Position numbers and translations under genes: made by a program | Origin: an uncultured Dongia sp. | Lineage (GTDB): Bacteria > Pseudomonadota > Alphaproteobacteria > Dongiales > Dongiaceae | Length of the DNA stretch: 64,000 nt | Assembly: GCF_936916975.1 (NCBI RefSeq) | Contig: NZ_CAKZGO010000003.1 | Location: forward strand, 372,001-436,000 | Direction of reading: 5' to 3' | Notes under the pieces: model-generated | What the model saw: only the letters and a program-made list of their open reading frames with translations | Told to the model about the DNA's origin: nothing | Database searches by the model: none | Part shown: one piece after another, positions 6,924-33,641 of the stretch | How the letters are laid out: each line of letters starts with the position of its first letter | How positions within the stretch are numbered: the stretch's first letter is position 1

Positions 6924-8753
6924 ATGGCCAAGAGCGACCCCGGCAGCCCCCCGCCCGGCGATAACAGCAACGCAAATACGCAAGACCCGCAGGAAATGGC
7001 GGAATCCATGAGTCGCATCGCCGAGCAATCGCAGCGACTGATGAAGGACTTTCTCGGCCGCCACGCCCAGGATTTCAGCATTGGCCCGGATACCGCCAGT
7101 TTAGGCCGCGCCTTCCTGGAAATGACCACCCGCATGATGGGCGACCCGGCCAGGATGCTAGAGGCCCAGGTCTCGCTCTGGCAGGATTACATGAACCTGT
7201 GGCAATCGACAGCCGCCCGCATGATGGGCCAGGAACCGGACCCGGTGATTGCGCCGGCCAAGGATGACCGCCGCTTCAAGGATTCCGCCTGGAACGACAA
7301 TCAGGTGTTCGACTACATCAAGCAATCCTATCTGCTGACCGCGCGCTGGATGCAGAACACCGTGCGCAAGGTCGATGGGCTCGACGACAAGACGGCCAAG
7401 AAGGTCGATTTCTACACGCGCCAATTCGTCGATGCGATGGCGCCCAGCAATTTCGTCATGACCAACCCCGAAGTACTGCGCACGACGCTGGAAAGCCGCG
7501 GCGAAAATCTGGTCAAGGGGCTCGAGAACCTGCTGGAGGATCTTGAGCGCGGCAACGGGAAGCTCCGGATCTCGATGACCGATCAGGAGGCGTTCGAGAT
7601 CGGCAAGAACGTCGCCGTCCAACCGGGCAAGGTCGTGTTTCAGAACGAGCTCCTGCAGCTCATCCAATACACGCCGACCACAAAAAAGGTCGCCAAGCGC
7701 CCGCTGCTGATCATCCCGCCCTGGATCAACAAATATTACATCCTGGATCTGAAGCCGCAGAACTCCTTCGTGAAATGGGCGGTTGATCAGGGCCAGACCG
7801 TGTTCATGATCTCCTGGGTCAATCCGGACGAAAACCTCGCCGACAAATCCTTTGTCGATTACATGCTGCAAGGACCACTCGCCGCCATTGAGGCGATCCT
7901 CAAAGCCACCGGCGAGAAGAGCGTCAATGTCATCGGCTATTGCTTAGGTGGCACGCTGCTCTCCTGCCTGCTCTCTTATCTCCAGGCGAAGAAGCGCTCT
8001 GATCTCATCGCCAGCGCCACCTTCTTCACGACGATGATCGATTTTGCCGAAGCGGGCGAGCTTTCGATCTTCATCGACGAGGAACAACTCACGGCCCTTG
8101 AAGACAAGATGAATGAGCGCGGCTATCTTGAGGGCCATGAGATGGCAGCCACCTTCAACATGCTGCGCGCCAATGATCTGATCTGGTCCTTCGTCATCAA
8201 CAATTATCTACTCGGCAAAGAGCCGTTCCCGTTCGATCTCCTTTATTGGAATTCGGATTCGACGCGCATGCCGGCGGCGATGCACAGCTTCTATCTGCGC
8301 AACATGTATCAGAAGAACCTGCTCATTCAGCCGGGCGGGATAGAGTTGGATGGCGTGAAGATCGACCTCACCAAGATCACGCTGCCGACCTTCGTGCTGG
8401 CGACGCGCGAGGATCACATCGCACCCTGGGTCGCGGCCTATGCAGCAACGCAAACTTTTGGTGGCCCGGTCACTTTTGTACTGGCCGCGTCCGGTCACAT
8501 CGCCGGCGTGGTCAACCCGCCAGCCGCCGGTAAATACAGTCATTGGATTGGTAAGAACAACAAATCCTATCCGAAGAAACCGGAAGACTGGCTGGAGACG
8601 GCCGAGCACCGTCCCGGTTCCTGGTGGCCGGAATGGCAGAAATGGATCAGCGCCTTTAGCGACGGCGAGATTGATGCGCGCCAGCCCGGCACCGACAAGC
8701 TGAAAGCCATCGAAGACGCGCCGGGATCCTATGTGAAGGTGATGGCGCAATAG
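6924..8753 (+). CDS. phaC: Class I poly(3-hydroxyalkanoate) synthase
   Basis: Polymerises (R)-3-hydroxyacyl-CoA into polyhydroxyalkanoate on granule surfaces, for carbon storage. The 609-residue product has the class I length. The nucleophile is C340 in the lipase-like box GYCLGG, with D497 (ATREDHIAPW) and H525 (ASGHIAGVVNPP) completing the catalytic triad in the expected spacing. The N-terminal 30 residues are a variable Pro/Asn/Ser-rich tail. The start at 6924 has a moderate CAGGGA ribosome-binding site. No phaA, phaB or phaZ lies nearby, so other PHA genes must be elsewhere. Downstream, after 111 bp, is an aquaporin gene on the same strand with its own ribosome-binding site. Confidence 0.97.
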   Translation: MAKSDPGSPPPGDNSNANTQDPQEMAESMSRIAEQSQRLMKDFLGRHAQDFSIGPDTASLGRAFLEMTTRMMGDPARMLEAQVSLWQDYMNLWQSTAARMMGQEPDPVIAPAKDDRRFKDSAWNDNQVFDYIKQSYLLTARWMQNTVRKVDGLDDKTAKKVDFYTRQFVDAMAPSNFVMTNPEVLRTTLESRGENLVKGLENLLEDLERGNGKLRISMTDQEAFEIGKNVAVQPGKVVFQNELLQLIQYTPTTKKVAKRPLLIIPPWINKYYILDLKPQNSFVKWAVDQGQTVFMISWVNPDENLADKSFVDYMLQGPLAAIEAILKATGEKSVNVIGYCLGGTLLSCLLSYLQAKKRSDLIASATFFTTMIDFAEAGELSIFIDEEQLTALEDKMNERGYLEGHEMAATFNMLRANDLIWSFVINNYLLGKEPFPFDLLYWNSDSTRMPAAMHSFYLRNMYQKNLLIQPGGIELDGVKIDLTKITLPTFVLATREDHIAPWVAAYAATQTFGGPVTFVLAASGHIAGVVNPPAAGKYSHWIGKNNKSYPKKPEDWLETAEHRPGSWWPEWQKWISAFSDGEIDARQPGTDKLKAIEDAPGSYVKVMAQ

Positions 8754-9549: not shown

Positions 9550-9644
9550 CGTCATGCCCGAGCCCACTCTTGAATCAAGACTGGCCGGGCATCCACTCCC
9601 TCAACTGCACTCGTGGATCCCCGGGTCTTCGCCCGGGGATGACG
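9550..9644. repeat. Bipartite palindromic intergenic repeat, copy 1
   Basis: About 95 bp bounded by CGTCATGCCC on the left and GGGGATGACG on the right. It has two hairpin halves: a left one around AGCCC...GGGC and a right one, GATCCCCGGG-TCTTCG-CCCGGGGAT, joined by an unstructured spacer. It sits between the convergent 3' ends of aqpZ and the EF-G-like gene, where such an element could also act as a transcription barrier. Copies 2 and 3 are at 12564 and 15752. Confidence 0.8.
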
Positions 9645-9661
9645 ATCTAAAGTGCAACTCT

Positions 9662-11746
9662 CTAAGCAGCGCCCTTCTGCGCCGTCATGGCGTGACGTTG
9701 CTCGATCACTTTGTCGGCAAGGCGGCCGCTCAGTTCCTGAAGATGATCGAATTCGTACGAGAAGTTGCCGATGCCGAGCGTCAATGATCGCAGTTCGATG
9801 ATCATGTCGTGGAGTTCGGATTGTGGGACAAGGGCCTGGACCACTTCCCAGCCGGTCCAGTCTTCCTTGGCCTGGAAGTTGAGGATCTGGCCGCGCCGTC
9901 CGGTCACCAGATTGTGGACGCGGGCGGTGAATTCGGCCGGAGCCGAGACTTCGACCGAGAAGATCGGCTCCAACAACACCGAGCCGCAGAGCGGCATCGC
10001 TTCCTGCATGGCCTGACGGGCGACCGTCTTGAACGCCATGTCAGAACTGTCGACAGCGTGGAACTGGCCGTCGAACAAGGCCACCGCGACGTCAACCACC
10101 GGGAAGCCGAGGGGCCCGCGCACCAGATAGTCGCGCGCACCCTCCTCGACCGAGCCGATGAACTGGCGCGGCACCGAGCCACCGACCACACGATCGTGAA
10201 ACTCGAAGCCAGCGCCACGCGCCAAGGGCCAGACCTCGATATGCACATCGGCGAACTGGCCATGACCACCGGACTGTCGCTTGAAGCGTGAATGCTGTTT
10301 GACACCGCTGCGGATGGTTTCCTTGTAGCTGACCTGCGGCCGGCGATGTTTCATCGGCAGGCTGAAACGGGACTTCAGCCGATCGAAGGCGATGTTGAGG
10401 TGAATCTCGCCTTGCCCCGACAGCAGCAATTCGTGCGTATCCGGATCATGCGTGAAGGTGAGTGAGGTATCCTCCTCGATCAGCTTGGCCAGTGCCGAGG
10501 TGAGCTTCACCTCATCAGAGCGATTCTCTGCATCCATCGCCAGCACGAACAATGGCTCCAGCGGTGCCGGCCAGACGAAATCCGGGTTCTTCTTGCCTGA
10601 GGCGGTCAGGAGGTCGCCGGTCCTGACTTCCTCCATTCGCGCCAGCGCCACGACCTCGCCGGTATTGGCGTGGGGCACCTTCTCGAACGCATTGCCCTTG
10701 GGCCGCAACACGCCGGCCACCCGGACACCGTTGAGAACGGAGCCTTCCGAGACCCGCCCGCCGAAGATGCGCGAGAGCGACAGCTTGCCGGCATGGGGTT
10801 GATGATAGGTCTTGAAGACCAGCGTCGAGGCATCATAGCTGGAAATGCCGAGACGCTGTGCCAGCGCCTCCGGTCCCGGTACTTCATGGCGCAAAGCCTT
10901 CAGCAAACGGCGGACGCCGCCATCGCGTTCCGCCTCGCCGAGGAGCACCGGCACGATGAGATCGGCAGCAAGGTCCTTGGCGAATTGCTGGTAGATCTCA
11001 TCCCGGGGCGGCACCACGTCGGTCAGGATCTCTTCCATCAGGTGGTCATCAAAGTCCGCCAGCGACTCCAGCATGCGGCCGCGCGCTTCCAATTCGCGCG
11101 GCAGGACTTCCTCGGGCATCTTGATGAGGTCGGATTCCTGGCCCGGATGATATTTGTAGGCGCGCTCGCTCACCAGATCGACATAGCCGGTAACCTCACC
11201 GCCGTCCTTTCCAGCGCCACGGATCGGCACCTGGCGCAGCACCAGCGGGCGGCTGGAGACCGCCTGCAACGCATCCAGCATCTCGCGCACGCGGTGCGAT
11301 GAGACATCCATTTTGTTGATGAAAAGAATGTGCGGGATCTGGTGATCGTCGAGGAATTTCAGGGTCGGCGCCAGCATCAGCGCCTTGTCGATCAATGGTT
11401 CGCAGACGACGATGGCGACATCGGCCACCATCAGGGCATTGCGCGCTTCCTGCGCCAGTTCGACGGAGCCCGGGCAATCGAGGAAGCACCAGCGTTCGCC
11501 GAGATAGTCCGTGGTGGCGGCGGTGACTTCGACCGACATCTTGCGGGCGCGGGCCTCGGCGGAGCTGTCGGCAACCGTATTGCCTTCCTTGGCCGTTCCT
11601 TTGCGATGGATGGCACCAGTGACGAAGAGCAAGCTTTCAAGCAGAGCGGTCTTGCCGCTGAGATAGGGACCCACAATAGCGGCGCAGCGCGGCGCCGCCG
11701 GTTCTCTGCCGTTTTGTGTTCCAGCATGTTGAGTGACTGTAGCCAT
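9662..11746 (-). CDS. Elongation factor G-like translational GTPase (EF-G paralogue)
   Basis: 694 residues with the full EF-G layout: GTPase domain (1 to about 280), domain II, and domains III-V ending near ALVPQSELHDMIIELRSLT. It is not the main EF-G: the P-loop reads GPYLSGKT instead of GHVDAGKT, the switch I RGITI motif is replaced by ARKMSVEV, and switch II reads DCPG instead of DTPG. The base-recognition motif NKMD is intact, so GTP binding is likely. Standard fusA normally lies in a rpsL-rpsG-fusA-tuf cluster, which is not here. Such second copies have been linked to ribosome recycling or stress roles, but the role here is unknown. Start supported by a perfect AAGGAGGT. Confidence 0.9.
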   Translation of the reverse strand: MATVTQHAGTQNGREPAAPRCAAIVGPYLSGKTALLESLLFVTGAIHRKGTAKEGNTVADSSAEARARKMSVEVTAATTDYLGERWCFLDCPGSVELAQEARNALMVADVAIVVCEPLIDKALMLAPTLKFLDDHQIPHILFINKMDVSSHRVREMLDALQAVSSRPLVLRQVPIRGAGKDGGEVTGYVDLVSERAYKYHPGQESDLIKMPEEVLPRELEARGRMLESLADFDDHLMEEILTDVVPPRDEIYQQFAKDLAADLIVPVLLGEAERDGGVRRLLKALRHEVPGPEALAQRLGISSYDASTLVFKTYHQPHAGKLSLSRIFGGRVSEGSVLNGVRVAGVLRPKGNAFEKVPHANTGEVVALARMEEVRTGDLLTASGKKNPDFVWPAPLEPLFVLAMDAENRSDEVKLTSALAKLIEEDTSLTFTHDPDTHELLLSGQGEIHLNIAFDRLKSRFSLPMKHRRPQVSYKETIRSGVKQHSRFKRQSGGHGQFADVHIEVWPLARGAGFEFHDRVVGGSVPRQFIGSVEEGARDYLVRGPLGFPVVDVAVALFDGQFHAVDSSDMAFKTVARQAMQEAMPLCGSVLLEPIFSVEVSAPAEFTARVHNLVTGRRGQILNFQAKEDWTGWEVVQALVPQSELHDMIIELRSLTLGIGNFSYEFDHLQELSGRLADKVIEQRHAMTAQKGAA

Positions 11747-11943
11747 CTCGACCTCCTTTTCGCTGATGAAATTTCGCGTGAGAGGTCCGGTCTTCTGCGG
11801 GGCCGGTATGTTGCAAGTGTTTCAGGGGCGATGGCCCACTGGCAAGGATAAAAGGCGCAACAAAGACTGATCAATTTGCGTGCGGTGCAATATGAAGGTG
11901 AGTCTTGCTGACGCTTGGCAAGGCGCGCGCGATCGGGCATCCT

Positions 11944-11959
11944 GTGAACACTTGTTCAC
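11944..11959. promoter_or_regulatory. Perfect 16-bp palindrome, probable TetR operator
   Basis: GTGAACA-CT-TGTTCAC is a perfect 7-bp inverted repeat with a 2-bp centre. It lies 18 bp upstream of the TetR start codon, the usual place for an autoregulatory operator. It could also affect the EF-G-like gene transcribed the other way, whose start is about 200 bp distant. Confidence 0.65.
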
Positions 11960-11977
11960 TGTTGCTTCGGGGGAAGC

Positions 11978-12694
11978 TTGCCACGCGGAATCGCCACCAG
12001 AAACAGGATCAAACAGGCAGCGCTGGAACTCTTCGTTGCGAAGGGTGTCCTCGGCACGTCGGTGCGTGACATCGCTGCCTTGGCGGAGATCGCCGAGGGC
12101 GGGCTCTATCGCCACTACGCCTCGAAAGAGGATCTCGCCTGGAAACTGTTCTCGGAAAATTACGCAGGGCTCGCGAAGGAATTGCACGATCTGGCGAAGA
12201 CGAAAGGCGATTTTGCCAGCCGGCTAGGTGCCATGATTCAGCACTTTTGCCGCTTCTTCGACGAGGAGCCTTTGATGTTCCGCTTCCTGCTGCTGACCCA
12301 GCACCAGGAATTGCCCAAGCTGCGAGCAAAATCGCAGTCCCCGGTGCAGGCGTTGCACAAGCTGGTCGTCGATGCGAAGAAGCAGGGCGAAATTGCCGTG
12401 GAAGACGTTGACCTGGTGACGGCGCAGATATTGGGGCTGATCCTGCAACCGGCGACGTTCATGGTCTATGGCCTGCTGGCGCCCGGCATGCAGCGCGTTG
12501 AGGCCGAGACGGTGGCGGCATGTTTGAAGGTAGTTGCAGCGTCATCGCCCTACCAAAGAAAGTCGTCATCCCCGGGCTTGACCCGGGGATCTACTTCAGC
12601 TGCCAAGCTGTTGCCGACAGATCCCCGGCCCTCTTTGAACAAAGGCGGGCCCGGGGATGACGGTGACAAAATGCGCGTGCGGGGCAGCAAATGA
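11978..12694 (+). CDS. TetR-family transcriptional regulator with repeat-derived C-terminus
   Basis: The N-terminal 60 residues form a TetR DNA-binding domain: TRNRIKQAALELFVAKG, then the recognition helix region TSVRDIAALAEIAEGGLYRHY and the usual KEDL turn. The ligand-binding domain follows to about residue 190. The last 40 or so residues (SSPGLTRGSTS...GGPGDDGDK) are the translation of an intergenic repeat, so the protein is longer than the typical 190-210 residues. The start is a TTG with GGGGGAAG just ahead; no better ATG exists before the helix-turn-helix. Its stop overlaps the glycosyltransferase start (ATGA), which implies co-expression. The ligand is unknown. Confidence 0.88.
   Translation: MPRGIATRNRIKQAALELFVAKGVLGTSVRDIAALAEIAEGGLYRHYASKEDLAWKLFSENYAGLAKELHDLAKTKGDFASRLGAMIQHFCRFFDEEPLMFRFLLLTQHQELPKLRAKSQSPVQALHKLVVDAKKQGEIAVEDVDLVTAQILGLILQPATFMVYGLLAPGMQRVEAETVAACLKVVAASSPYQRKSSSPGLTRGSTSAAKLLPTDPRPSLNKGGPGDDGDKMRVRGSK
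12564..12662. repeat. Bipartite palindromic repeat, copy 2, inside the TetR reading frame
   Basis: About 99 bp from CGTCATCCCC to GGGGATGACG. The left half forms the hairpin ATCCCCGGG-CTTGA-CCCGGGGAT; the right half pairs GATCCCCGGCCC with GGGCCCGGGGAT across CTCTTTGAACAAAGGC. Unlike copies 1 and 3 it is coding, supplying the C-terminal tail of the TetR regulator and lying 29 bp before the next start codon. Confidence 0.85.
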
Positions 12695-13857
12695 GCAACT
12701 CGGCGCCTCATTCTCTCGAACTCACCATCCTGATGCCGTGCCTCAACGAGGCGGAGACGCTTGAGGTCTGCGTGCGCAAGGCGCGGCATTTCCTGGACAG
12801 CCATGGCATCGACGGCGAGGTGCTGATCGCCGATAACGGCAGCACCGACGGGTCGCACGAGCTGGCGCGGGCGGCGGGCGCTCGGGTGGTCGACATCCCG
12901 GTGAAGGGCTATGGCGCGGCGCTGCTCGGCGGCATTGAGGCCGCGCGGGGCCGCTACATCATCATGGGCGATTCGGACGATTCCTATGATTTCTCGAATC
13001 TTATGGCCTTCGTCGAGCGGCTGCGCGCCGGCTTCGATCTCGTCATGGGCAACCGCTTCGAGGGCGGTATCAAGCCTGGCGCCATGCCACCGCTGCACCG
13101 ATATTTCGGCAACCCGGTGCTGACCGGCATCGGCCGCATGCTGTTCAAGAGTCCCCTGCGCGATTTCCATTGCGGCCTGCGCGGTTTCTCGCGCGAAGCG
13201 GTACGCGGGCTCGATCTTCGGACCACGGGAATGGAATTCGCCAGCGAGATGATCGTCAAGGCGACACTCAACCGCCTCAAGATCACCGAGGTGCCGACGA
13301 CACTGGCACCAGATGGGCGCTCACGGCCGCCCCATCTGCGCAGTTGGCGCGATGGCTGGCGACATCTGCGGTTCCTGCTGATGCTGAGCCCCGAATGGCT
13401 GTTCTTTTACCCCGGTCTGCTATTGGCGATGATCGGGTTCATTGTGCTGGTCACGCTGTCGCTCGGACCAATCCGCATCGCCAATATCACGTTCGATATC
13501 AACACCCTGCTACTGGCGGGTGTCGCAGTGATCGTCGGCGTGCAGGCGGTGGGCCTAGCCGTACTCGCCAAGCAGTTCTGCATCGCCAATCATCTGTTGC
13601 CGCCCAGCGCGCGCTTTCGCTCGCTCGCGGATCATCTGTCACTGGAATTCCTGCTGCTGGTGGGTACCGCCCTGACCCTGGCCGGCATCGTCGGCATCGC
13701 AATTGCCATCCTGACCTGGCAGGAGGCCGGCTTCGGCAATCTCAATACCGGCAACATGATGCGCCTGCTGGTGCCGTCTTCGACCGCGCTCTGCGTCGGC
13801 CTGCAGCTGGCGTTCACCGCATTCTTCAAGGGCGTGCTGGGCCTTGCGACGCGCTAG
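12691..13857 (+). CDS. Family 2 glycosyltransferase with C-terminal membrane helices
   Basis: A membrane-bound glycosyltransferase resembling dolichyl/polyprenyl-phosphate mannose or glucose synthases. The GT-A catalytic domain spans residues 10-230, with ILMPCLNEAETLEVCV, the nucleotide/metal-binding GDSDDSYDF (about residues 93-101) and the HCGLRGF acceptor-side motif. About four hydrophobic helices follow residue 235. It probably moves a sugar to a lipid carrier at the cytoplasmic face. It overlaps the upstream TetR gene by 4 nt. No other glycan genes are nearby, so the sugar and acceptor cannot be named. Confidence 0.88.
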   Translation: MSNSAPHSLELTILMPCLNEAETLEVCVRKARHFLDSHGIDGEVLIADNGSTDGSHELARAAGARVVDIPVKGYGAALLGGIEAARGRYIIMGDSDDSYDFSNLMAFVERLRAGFDLVMGNRFEGGIKPGAMPPLHRYFGNPVLTGIGRMLFKSPLRDFHCGLRGFSREAVRGLDLRTTGMEFASEMIVKATLNRLKITEVPTTLAPDGRSRPPHLRSWRDGWRHLRFLLMLSPEWLFFYPGLLLAMIGFIVLVTLSLGPIRIANITFDINTLLLAGVAVIVGVQAVGLAVLAKQFCIANHLLPPSARFRSLADHLSLEFLLLVGTALTLAGIVGIAIAILTWQEAGFGNLNTGNMMRLLVPSSTALCVGLQLAFTAFFKGVLGLATR

Positions 13858-13886
13858 CGCGCGCTATTGCCCGGCGCAAATGCGCC

Positions 13887-14381
13887 TTATTGCATCGTAC
13901 AGACCAGATCCTTCTTGGCCTGGTCGACGTCATAGGCATAGCGCGGGCGGTTGACACAGGTTTCGGTGTATTTGGCAGCGAGCGCGTTGTACTCGCTGAC
14001 CGCCTGATTGAGCGACAGCCGCACATCGGATTGAATGAGGTCGCGCAAGGCCGCTGCCTGGGCCATGGAGTTCTTCAGCAATTCCTGACCGATGAGATCA
14101 TTGGGATCGAGCGTCTTGCGGCGCTCCTTGATCTGCGCATCGAGGGTGTTCAATTGCGCCTGCCGTTCATCGAGAATGGCGCGGCGCATAGCGATATCCT
14201 GGCGTGCTGTCTCCAGCCTCGGTTCCTCACACAGGCAGCCGCGCAATTCCTCGACGGTGAGTGCCGGACCGGCGGGCACCGGGGTTGCGTTCTGGGCCAG
14301 GGCGGTGCCTGAGGATATCACCAGGGCCATGAGGAGGGATGCAGCAAACCGATTGATCATCTTGCGGGTTCCGTCTTTCAT
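13887..14381 (-). CDS. Hypothetical periplasmic coiled-coil protein
   Basis: 164 residues with a signal peptide (MINRFAASLLMALVISSGTA, cleavage after ALAQ or nearby) from the inner ATG at 14360; the outer ATG at 14381 adds seven residues and neither has a strong ribosome-binding site. The mature part is mainly helical and Gln/Glu/Arg-rich (RQDIAMRRAILDERQAQL), suggesting a coiled coil. Four cysteines (GCLCEE near the N-terminus, TCVN and VCTMQ near the C-terminus) could form disulphides. I do not recognise a characterised family. It is convergent with the glycosyltransferase gene. Confidence 0.7.
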   Translation of the reverse strand: MKDGTRKMINRFAASLLMALVISSGTALAQNATPVPAGPALTVEELRGCLCEEPRLETARQDIAMRRAILDERQAQLNTLDAQIKERRKTLDPNDLIGQELLKNSMAQAAALRDLIQSDVRLSLNQAVSEYNALAAKYTETCVNRPRYAYDVDQAKKDLVCTMQ

Positions 14382-14476
14382 TCTTCGGTGCAGACCTTAT
14401 GCTCTAGCGGTGGTTTATGGCAATGTTGCGGCCGAATAATCAAGAAACCTGGGCCATGTCTTTAGGCGGGGGATGA

Positions 14477-15727
14477 ATGCGGATCGTCGTTCTGGGTGCG
14501 GGGTTGCTGGGCGTCACCAGCGCCTATTACCTGGCCAAGGAAGGCCATGAGGTTGTCGTTATCGAGCGTCGCCCGGAAGCGGCGCGGGAAACCAGTTTCG
14601 CCAATGCCGGACTGGTGACGCCGGGACATGCAAGTTCCTGGGCCAGTCCGCGGGCGCCGATGATCCTGCTGAAATCGCTGTGGCGAAATGACACATCCTT
14701 GCGGTACCGCCTGCGCCTTGATCCGCGCATGTGGTTGTGGAGCCTGCAGTTCCTCCGTAATTGCACCACCGCGCGCAACCGCGCCGCCACCAAGACCAAG
14801 ATCAAGCTGTGCCTCTACAGCCAGGCGGAGATGCTGCGCGTCGGGCGTGAAGAAGGGCTGGAATGGGACCGCATCGCGAAAGGCGCCATCTATCTCTACA
14901 GCGATCCGGCGGCGTTTCGCGCCGGCAAGGAAAGCATGCGCTTCCTCGCCGACCAGGGGATCGAGGTCAATGTGCTCGACCCCGACCAACTGGTGGCACT
15001 GGAGCCGGCCTTGGCCCGCGCCAAGGGCACGCTGGCCGGCGGCATGCATACGCCGGGCGATGAATCGGGCGATGCGCGGAAATTCACGCTGGGCCTCGCG
15101 GAGCGCGCAAAGGCGCTCGGCGTCACCTTCCGCTTCGGCGAGACCATTGAGCGCATCGACCTGCAGGGCAAGCGCATCACGCATGTCATCACCGACAAAG
15201 GCCAGGTGACCGGCGATCAATATGTCATGGCGCTGGGATCGTACGCGCCGCTGCTCTCGCGGCAGATCGGATTCAACCTGCCGATCTTTCCAGTGAAGGG
15301 CTATTCGCTAACCTTGCCGGTCGCAGACCCCGCTGAGGCGCCGACCATCGGCGGGGTGCATGAGGAACATCTGGTGGCGTTCTCGCGGCTGGGCGATCGC
15401 ATTCGCCTGACCGCCACCGCGGATTTCACCGGCTACGACACCGAATTCCAGCCGGCGAACTTCGCCCACATGCTGCGCGTGGCGCGCGAGCTGTTTCCCA
15501 AGGCCGCACTCTATGACCGGCCGGATTACTGGTCGTGCTTGCGGCCGATGACCCCGGACGGCCCACCGATCATGGGGCCGTCGCCGGTTGCCAATCTGTG
15601 GCTCAACGCGGGCCATGGGCATATGGGCTGGACGATGGCTTGCGGCTCATCGCGCCTCCTCGTCGACCAGATGCTGGGCCGTAAGCCGGAGATCGATGCG
15701 GAGCCGTTTCAGTACAGTAGGTATTGA
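14477..15727 (+). CDS. dadA: D-amino-acid dehydrogenase (DadA family)
   Basis: An FAD-dependent, membrane-associated enzyme that oxidises D-amino acids to 2-oxo acids plus ammonia and passes electrons to the respiratory chain. The 416-residue product starts with the FAD-binding dinucleotide fold VVLGAGLLGVTSAYYLAKEG (residues 4-23). DadA-type signatures follow: ETSFANAGLVTPGH, FPVKGYSLTLP and, near the end, NLWLNAGHGHMGWTMA. No alanine racemase (dadX) is adjacent, so it is not a classical dadAX operon. Other D-amino acids, including D-arginine, are possible substrates. Confidence 0.92.
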   Translation: MRIVVLGAGLLGVTSAYYLAKEGHEVVVIERRPEAARETSFANAGLVTPGHASSWASPRAPMILLKSLWRNDTSLRYRLRLDPRMWLWSLQFLRNCTTARNRAATKTKIKLCLYSQAEMLRVGREEGLEWDRIAKGAIYLYSDPAAFRAGKESMRFLADQGIEVNVLDPDQLVALEPALARAKGTLAGGMHTPGDESGDARKFTLGLAERAKALGVTFRFGETIERIDLQGKRITHVITDKGQVTGDQYVMALGSYAPLLSRQIGFNLPIFPVKGYSLTLPVADPAEAPTIGGVHEEHLVAFSRLGDRIRLTATADFTGYDTEFQPANFAHMLRVARELFPKAALYDRPDYWSCLRPMTPDGPPIMGPSPVANLWLNAGHGHMGWTMACGSSRLLVDQMLGRKPEIDAEPFQYSRY

Positions 15728-15751
15728 GAGAGCCGATCGCGCTACTATCCC

Positions 15752-15856
15752 ATCGTCATGGTACGCGAAGGCGTACCACCCACGAGTTTCTTTCTGATGA
15801 AACACAGTCGTTGCAGGCGAACTCGTGGGTGGTCGGCCTGCGCCGACCATGACGAT
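15752..15856. repeat. Bipartite palindromic intergenic repeat, copy 3
   Basis: 105 bp ending in perfect 11-bp inverted repeats, ATCGTCATGGT and ACCATGACGAT. Inside are a small left hairpin (GGTACGC-GAA-GGCGTACC), a longer inner pair (ACCACCCACGAGTT with AACTCGTGGGTGGT), and a right hairpin (GGTCGGC-CT-GCGCCGACC). It lies between the convergent ends of dadA and a minus-strand gene. The stem sequence differs from copies 1 and 2 but the architecture is the same. Confidence 0.85.
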
Positions 15857-33556: not shown

Positions 33557-33641
33557 TGGTGCGGTCGAGAAGACTCGAACTTCCACGGGTTGCCCCACAG
33601 CGACCTCAACGCTGCGCGTCTACCAATTCCGCCACGACCGC
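33557..33641 (-). tRNA. tRNA-Leu (anticodon GAG)
   Basis: The minus strand gives an 85-nt class II tRNA. The acceptor stem GCGGTCG pairs with CGACCGC, the discriminator is A, and CCA is encoded. The anticodon arm CAGCG-TTGAGGT-CGCTG shows GAG at 33605-33607 (plus-strand ctc), reading CUC and CUU. The D-loop GGAATTGGTAGACGC is typical of leucine tRNA, and the T-arm carries GTTCGAGTC. The variable arm, TGGGGCAACCC, is long as expected for tRNA-Leu. Confidence 0.97.

Follow-up and report, generated by a model that had tools for sequence, protein, structure and literature searches.

CGTC-tagged REP dimers in a Dongia genome and their association with genes for a small GIY-YIG nuclease

Introduction

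The window analysed here comprises 64,000 nucleotides of an uncultured Dongia sp. of the family Dongiaceae (RefSeq assembly GCF_936916975.1, contig NZ_CAKZGO010000003.1, positions 372,001 to 436,000 of the forward strand) and belongs to a genome of 5.48 Mb, referred to below as G000. An earlier sequence-only reading of the window singled out three palindromes of about 100 bp and took them for elements akin to repetitive extragenic palindromic (REP) sequences, non-autonomous and possibly mobilised from elsewhere. This proved a good description. As judged from its sequence, each of the three is a head-to-head dimer of CGTC-tagged REP units, a known kind of element, and units of this kind regularly enclose genes for one subfamily of small GIY-YIG nucleases.

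CGTC REPs, families CGTC-1 to CGTC-4, were described by Di Nocera, De Gregorio and Rocco in 2013 (PMC3733652). According to the available passages of that paper, they span five phyla and every alphaproteobacterial order and lie mostly downstream of coding regions; Neisseria dRS3 was equated with CGTC-1, and the Rickettsia palindromic elements (RPEs) RPE-6 and RPE-4 of R. conorii with CGTC-1 and CGTC-4, respectively. The same passages state that these REPs "apparently lack a dedicated transposase", regard their few associations with transposase genes as fortuitous, and suggest that the transposase has been lost and that the families are heading to extinction.

Results

Three REP dimers in the window

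All three repeats lie where the sequence-only reading had placed them and are inverted pairs, ~95-101 bp in length, of hairpin units (Table 1); only the limits of the third, given as 15752-15856, included two extra flanking bases on each side. Each element begins with CGTCAT, followed by a hairpin, a tail (ATCCAC/ATCTAC or ACCCACGAGTT) and a spacer, and continues in mirrored arrangement to a terminal ATGACG. The terminal motifs named in that reading are thus present, although as bare motifs they are unremarkable in the window, which has 36 occurrences of CGTCAT and 57 of ATGACG. Two copies were said to lie between convergent genes, and gene context identifies these as copy 1, with a MIP-family gene (+) on one side and a gene resembling elongation factor G (-) on the other, and copy 3, which is bordered by a DAO-family gene (+) and by an open reading frame (ORF) on the minus strand that has no Pfam match. 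The 3' end of a TetR_N-family ORF contains copy 2, which runs in frame through the C-terminal part of that ORF and in this resembles intragenic RPEs.

Table 1 Coordinates of the REP dimers and the overlapping reading frame in the window.
Feature	Position	Strand	Remarks
Copy 1, CGTC REP dimer, head-to-head	9550-9644		Left half 9550-9596, expanded hairpin; right half 9609-9644 (minus), regular
Copy 2, CGTC REP dimer	12564-12662		Left half 12564-12594, regular; right half 12620-12662 (minus), expanded
Copy 3, CGTC REP dimer, ACCCACGAGTT-tail class	15754-15854		Halves 15754-15787 (plus) and 15821-15854 (minus), stems unlike
TetR_N-family ORF, 238 codons	11978-12694	+	Copy 2 makes up codons ~196-228; TTG start assigned mechanically by the tool

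A half-unit model (R1) was built from 28 aligned halves, four of them from the window, with seeds picked by the CGTCAT motif. Applied to the window, R1 matched all six halves and nothing else up to an expectation value (E) of 1; five halves gave E-values of 3e-13 to 1.5e-5 and the sixth 0.015, four of the six having been training sequences. The CGTCAT tag, which sits unpaired at one end of the hairpin, is invariant in all 28 aligned halves, as expected of motif-chosen seeds. Among the 27 distinct halves, 95.5% of stem cells pair, compared with 68.4% in shuffled alignments, none of 500 reaching the observed value, and 27-47% after sliding the alignment, and seven of the nine stem pairs show changes on both sides, against 5.3 in shuffles (7 of 500 as high). 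The earlier claim that the stems vary in sequence yet keep pairing is therefore borne out, with compensatory changes present. In 40 regular dimers of G000, 98.2% of stem positions pair within the half and 77.9% across halves; because pairing within the half exceeds pairing across halves, the local hairpin is more conserved than the long palindrome.

The stem comprises 8-9 bp and starts with AT, its first pair being A-U in 17 of 27 halves and unpaired in the other 10 (ACCCAC class); the loop has 4-5 nt, and the unpaired tail is of the CCA type, with loops of 6 nt in some units and expanded hairpins in a few. The unpaired CGTC tag, the AT-starting 8-9 bp stem, a loop of 4-6 nt and a CCA-type tail are likewise features of published CGTC REPs, as are the prevalence of head-to-head dimers, subfamilies with compensatory stems, and the occurrence of both intergenic and intragenic copies, as far as the available description goes. 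Relative to that description, the present units differ in one class with an A.C mismatch at stem position 1 and in some expanded or nested hairpins.

Tails and loops define three classes, A (ACCCACGAGTT, loop mostly GAAG), B (ATCCAC without GAGTT) and C (ATCCACGAGTT), with 9 of 112 units fitting none. Copy 3 belongs to class A and copy 2 to class B, while copy 1 is of the ATCCAC type and B- or C-like, its regular half being assigned to C under the tail rule. None of the 40 regular dimers mixes AC-type with AT-type tails, and they show no preference for homodimers (11 of 40 observed, 11.7 expected). A head-to-head dimer could be drawn as a four-way junction, in which the outer CGTCAT and ATGACG pair, two hairpins form the arms and, in classes A and C, CGAGTT and AACTCG form an inner stem; single-strand folding favoured other structures for some window copies. 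A further subfamily of units carries a second hairpin nested out of the loop, giving elements of ~127 bp (L026 and L035 in G000); about ten places in G003 match this subfamily, with several hitting L308 11292-11418. There are also solo palindromes of ~30-31 bp consisting of CGTCAT, a hairpin and ATGACG (L017 1178-1208; G000:C19:100590-100620; and L302, near the copy-1 ortholog), which look like relics of dimers that have lost their middle.

Units are numerous in the searched genomes of the genus

The sequence-only reading expected further copies in the genome, and they are abundant. A generic unit pattern matched G000 91 times, compared with four matches for the reversed control, and R1 found at least 140 halves at E <= 0.01, with at most 150 candidates scored per genome (out of 6,939 in G000). 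Of these 140 halves, 96 form 48 head-to-head pairs of up to 200 bp, including one 31-bp palindrome that was counted once per strand, and a single tail-to-tail pair was seen within the same distance. Pair lengths cluster at ~77-79, 86-93 and 99-101 bp, with four pairs at 105-120 bp. Units occur in each of the seven genomes searched within the genus, G000 among them, at between at least 16 and at least 148 matches per genome (E <= 1e-5).

Tested tyrosine transposase genes lack two-sided tagged hairpins

A REP-associated tyrosine transposase (RAYT) was the mobiliser that the sequence-only reading had in mind, and this part of it found no support. The Y1_Tnp profile (PF01797) has no match in G000 at E <= 0.001, and none was found in G005 and G006, although these carry at least 65 and at least 148 unit matches. 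Four congeners have one Y1_Tnp gene each. Of 23 Y1_Tnp loci found in relatives, 18 were tested for flanking tagged hairpins, which occurred on one side in five and on both sides in none; R1 matches near some Y1_Tnp genes of the genus are likewise mostly one-sided. With no match in G000 and none of the 18 tested loci flanked on both sides, a RAYT was set aside as the partner of these REPs; the flanked enzyme gene is that of a small GIY-YIG nuclease. At two Y1_Tnp loci of G011 (L043 and L057) an untagged inverted repeat is common to both flanks (scores 51 and 47), and these genes resemble the tyrosine transposases flanked by terminal inverted repeats that are mentioned in the available part of PMC3733652.

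GIY-YIG genes lie between matching REPs in Dongiaceae

On contig C4 of G000, a head-to-head pair of 431 bp (G000:C4:296879-297309) has as its "spacer" a single-domain GIY-YIG gene; the two ends of the pair agree with other class-A REPs in G000 at up to 100%. A second gene of the same subfamily lies between class-C units on C5. These are two of four GIY-YIG matches in G000, the others being one more small gene without nearby units and UvrC.

In 16 relatives from the genus and family (G001-G016), 51 single-domain GIY-YIG matches were found, of which 50 were taken and one, a weak partial match in G011, was omitted. Together with the three from G000, these 53 genes were split by profile into 27 members of subfamily A (two of them, L099 and L119, broken), 23 other genes and three set aside for a stray or missing hidden Markov model match (L100, L151 and L112, the last with two stops and one R1 match alongside). 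R1 matches cluster around subfamily A, and none of the 11 UvrC regions, G000's included, has one. A repeat common to the left and right 250-bp flanks scored at least 49 in 23 of the 27 subfamily A genes. For the other small GIY-YIG genes, 20 of 23 scored at most 25 and three reached at least 62 with an unrelated repeat, while none of the six UvrC genes that could be evaluated (five had flanks too short) exceeded 22. Tagged hairpins stand on both sides of 19 of the 27 subfamily A genes and on one side of five more, compared with both sides in none of the other 23. Separately, three genes of another GIY-YIG subfamily (RCxDGxxYxGSTR type) near 1445-1900, namely L110 (G007), L122 and L123 (both G011), are flanked on both sides by a different palindromic repeat of the CCTCATCCT...AGGATGAGG type, which suggests that the pairing of GIY-YIG genes with REPs may be general.

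The association recurs in distant genomes

Ten subfamily A proteins were compared with contigs of named genomes, and the best 80 loci were taken, 75 of which could be evaluated, five having flanks shorter than 200 bp. Seed proteins came mostly from flanked genes and the scan used protein similarity only; the flank-score threshold of 45 and the tag rule were fixed after the shared-flank result in Dongiaceae had been seen. The two sets overlap in one identical locus (L152, Dongia deserti, of the same family, is L116 of G009), and many named loci come from metagenome bins, in which the labels can be wrong.

A shared flank repeat was found for 65 of the 75 genes (41 inverted, 24 direct), compared with 2 of 401 shifted windows from the same loci. 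Hairpins tagged [CT]GTCA[CT] stand on both sides of 50 genes, on one side of 16 and on neither side of nine, whereas the 401 shifted windows gave none with both sides and 11 with one. Two-sided hairpins also mark 15 of the 21 evaluable loci titled as non-alphaproteobacterial (grouped by our own list of titles); the two-sided loci include Planctomycetes bacterium syqfu, Pseudomonas guguanensis, Rhodanobacter thiooxydans, Pseudoxanthomonas and a metagenome-assembled genome of Gallionellaceae. In the 50 two-sided loci, the nearest units are oriented head-to-head in 29, tail-to-tail in 11 and head-to-tail in 10, and the 29 head-to-head gene-bearing units measure 359-590 bp, with a median of 395. 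At the level of sequence, we regard the association between subfamily A genes and CGTC REPs as established.

The nuclease and its REP classes

Subfamily A proteins consist of a bare GIY-YIG domain, PF01541 matching all 24 aligned members, with Y18, R28 and E65 invariant, which we take to be where GIY-YIG catalysis is expected. The AlphaFold model of the nuclease (predicted local distance difference test score, pLDDT, 93) was closest in a Foldseek search of the PDB to UPF0213 structures (E 3.6e-4 and 0.034), followed by Slx1-Slx4 chains. Subfamily A may thus resemble Slx1-Slx4, a nuclease of branched DNA, and a four-way junction would be the kind of substrate such enzymes take. Searches of NCBIfam and PHROGs returned weak matches to intron or homing endonucleases and nothing else.

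Across genomes, similarity between REPs correlates with similarity between nucleases (r 0.561, compared with 0.255 +- 0.117 after permuting the REPs between paralogs within each genome; 23 loci, genome identity controlled), a value reached in 25 of 2000 shuffles. One paralog each in G009 (L116) and G015 (L137), 90% identical as proteins, has CCAAGG-type ends, and a second paralog in each genome (L115 and L138, respectively) has [CT]GTCACCCC-type ends. REP type in this way follows nuclease similarity, showing class specificity.

Turnover, duplication and inversion

Comparison of orthologous places indicated that units come and go. At the place of copy 1, with both flanks aligned, G003 has a relic of ~30 bp, and G001 has a different dimer together with a 977-bp interval. 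Copy 2 is absent from G003 (both flanks aligned), and in G001, G006 and G005 the left flank alone aligns, with no unit after it. The copy 3 place is occupied in G003, G006 and G001 in the opposite orientation to G000 (reverse 162, 142 and 150 vs forward 56, 54 and 55), and has no unit in G005. Four further G000 dimers were compared. For three of them, none of the congeners aligned on both flanks has a dimer at that place (five, five and four congeners); at the fourth, two of five congeners have one, of uninformative orientation in G003 (90 vs 90) and of a different class in G001, and three have none. At one intergenic place (L308, element 7797-7895; L312 in G001), a class-A dimer in G000 corresponds to a class-C-like one in G001, which suggests reuse of sites or exchange of units.

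The gene-bearing unit on C4 of G000 is missing from the orthologous place in all five congeners aligned on both flanks, where G003 has one half together with a 793-bp interval. Two genomes each hold unit-exact duplicates at unrelated sites (L101/L102, 405 bp; L208/L214, 413 bp). In three of 15 orthologous pairs of nuclease loci, which include three pairs formed among three loci, the gene and its ends are inverted in place; the call for L162/L195 is a script flag, and L155/L158 proved by inspection to be an in-place inversion too. The latter pair had been considered a transfer of the unit between genera, a reading withdrawn when its flanks turned out to be the same site, reversed.

Among 124 dimer ends, 67% are flanked by T and 1% by G, in surroundings that are AT-rich (58% vs 38%).

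Discussion

From these patterns we consider it probable that CGTC REPs are mobilised by a small GIY-YIG nuclease of the Slx1-like kind. A small mobile unit would exist in two forms, a full one, with a gene of ~95-110 codons encoding this single-domain nuclease as the spacer between its ends, and a non-autonomous one, the CGTC dimer. The nuclease would recognise the hairpin or cruciform made by its own REP class and cut at the tagged border, so that the unit could be excised, flipped or copied elsewhere, with every nuclease paralog serving its own class; that it cuts the ends, where it cuts and how new copies originate is what we infer. Going further, the ~395-bp unit may be a complete autonomous mobile element, with the nuclease acting as a transposase on cruciform ends and CGTC REPs, perhaps including dRS3 and the Rickettsia RPEs, as its non-autonomous offspring, a proposal we hold tentatively. 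IS200-type elements measure ~0.7 kb, and an autonomous unit of ~395 bp, if real, would be far smaller.

Miniature inverted-repeat transposable elements (MITEs) are short non-autonomous elements sharing ends with a gene-bearing parent insertion sequence. CGTC dimers are like them in sharing ends with a gene-bearing unit in G000, for classes A and C; class-B ends on such a unit were not found in that genome. Unlike a MITE parent, the gene-bearing unit is only ~395 bp long, and has hairpin ends, and target duplication, at most weakly suggested by 2-bp flank matches, is not evident. The arrangement also parallels that of GTAG REPs, their REP doublets forming hairpins (REPINs) and the HUH/Y1 transposase TnpA-REP (RAYT), which, in the available passages of PMC6006769, comprise inverted REP pairs with a short spacer at high copy number and a low-copy cognate enzyme gene between the same REPs, one enzyme per REP class. 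It differs in the tag, CGTC rather than GTAG, and in the enzyme, whose GIY-YIG fold is unrelated to HUH. As a single domain of ~95 aa, the nuclease is like the standalone bacterial Slx1-like GIY-YIG proteins (UPF0213 and relatives; PDB 1zg2 and 1ywl) covered by the 2006 survey of the GIY-YIG superfamily (PMC1564403). In the parts of that survey available, the UPF0213-type cluster is predicted to act in DNA repair; unlike it, the subfamily described here is tied to REP ends, has several paralogs in many genomes and is duplicated with its ends in two of them.

Could the nuclease gene instead be a homing-type parasite that lands in CGTC REPs, the REPs being older and spread by other means? Such a parasite would suit the intron and homing endonucleases found as the only, weak NCBIfam and PHROGs matches, the 24 of 65 named cases with a direct repeat as the best one shared by the flanks, an arrangement expected of a gene lying between two dimers, and the mixed orientation of the nearest units. 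It is nevertheless unlikely. Nuclease genes are few in each genome, with two of the four GIY-YIG genes of G000 against more than 100 REPs there, REP type follows the nuclease across genomes, and in G043 and G046 the exact REP pattern searched for occurs solely as the two ends of the gene-bearing unit (diverged copies being possible), so that the unit there seems to have no REP population to land in. We rate as improbable an origin of the dimers from host replication and recombination, through hairpin-driven template switching, with the hairpins serving as terminators or regulatory ends of the nuclease gene: palindromic dimers are able to flip by recombination between their inverted ends, the solo 30-31 bp relics exist and REPs are reported mainly downstream of coding regions (in the available text of PMC3733652), but terminators need no matching class-specific sequence on both sides of one gene family, neither the other small GIY-YIG genes nor the tested Y1_Tnp loci have two-sided tagged hairpins, UvrC regions have no R1 match, and host processes would have to yield unit-exact duplicates at unrelated sites in two genomes. 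A RAYT or other transposase, since lost or acting in trans, as in the REPIN model, would explain why the head-to-head dimers share the anatomy of REPINs and could draw on the four congeners with a Y1_Tnp gene; with no such gene found in G000, G005 and G006, none of the 18 tested loci (of 23 found) flanked on both sides, and a tag other than GTAG, this is very improbable.

Several points weigh against mobilisation by the nuclease itself. The alignments speak directly to association, duplication and inversion, whereas cleavage, excision and transposition are what we infer from them, and host recombination between inverted ends could also yield the in-place inversions. The shared-flank test fails for 4 of 27 subfamily A genes in Dongiaceae and for 10 of 75 in named genomes. 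Class-B REPs of G000, to which copy 2 and the B- or C-like copy 1 relate, have no class-B-flanked nuclease gene in that genome; a flank type like class B lies at a nuclease locus of the congener G006 (L109). When two exact REP patterns were searched in 23 nuclease-bearing named genomes (reversed control 0 in all), at least 10 copies, and up to 74, were present in nine, one to seven in 10 and none in four; in Dyella, with 74 copies of one pattern, the nuclease gene has a one-sided tagged hairpin and no shared flank repeat. The 62 dimers examined show no excess of 3-5 bp direct repeats and no clear target-site duplication, and a 2-bp flank match in 12 of 62, against 6.3 expected, is weak among ten tests. 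The Foldseek E-values to Slx1 chains, at 0.046 and higher, are also weak.

A search of the open-access literature, partly confined to top-ranked matches, found no prior link of CGTC REPs to a GIY-YIG nuclease and no earlier ~395-bp gene-bearing unit; the sole open-access paper containing both "GIY-YIG" and "repetitive extragenic" (PMC9465073) is unrelated in its available parts. Where the available 2013 account (PMC3733652) gives CGTC REPs no link to a transposase gene, a GIY-YIG nuclease gene is here regularly enclosed by them. Because this nuclease is no known transposase, the association amends the description of CGTC REPs and not the membership of the present elements. A conserved gene enclosed by matching ends makes the mobility of these REPs, described in 2013 without an enzyme, directly testable, and it offers a candidate role for an unassigned GIY-YIG subfamily; the 2006 survey had raised the question of whether further members of the superfamily are molecular parasites (PMC1564403).

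Other features of the window

None of the three REP dimers matched an Rfam family at gathering thresholds. At the same thresholds, the sole Rfam match in the window is a tRNA gene at 33560-33641 on the minus strand.

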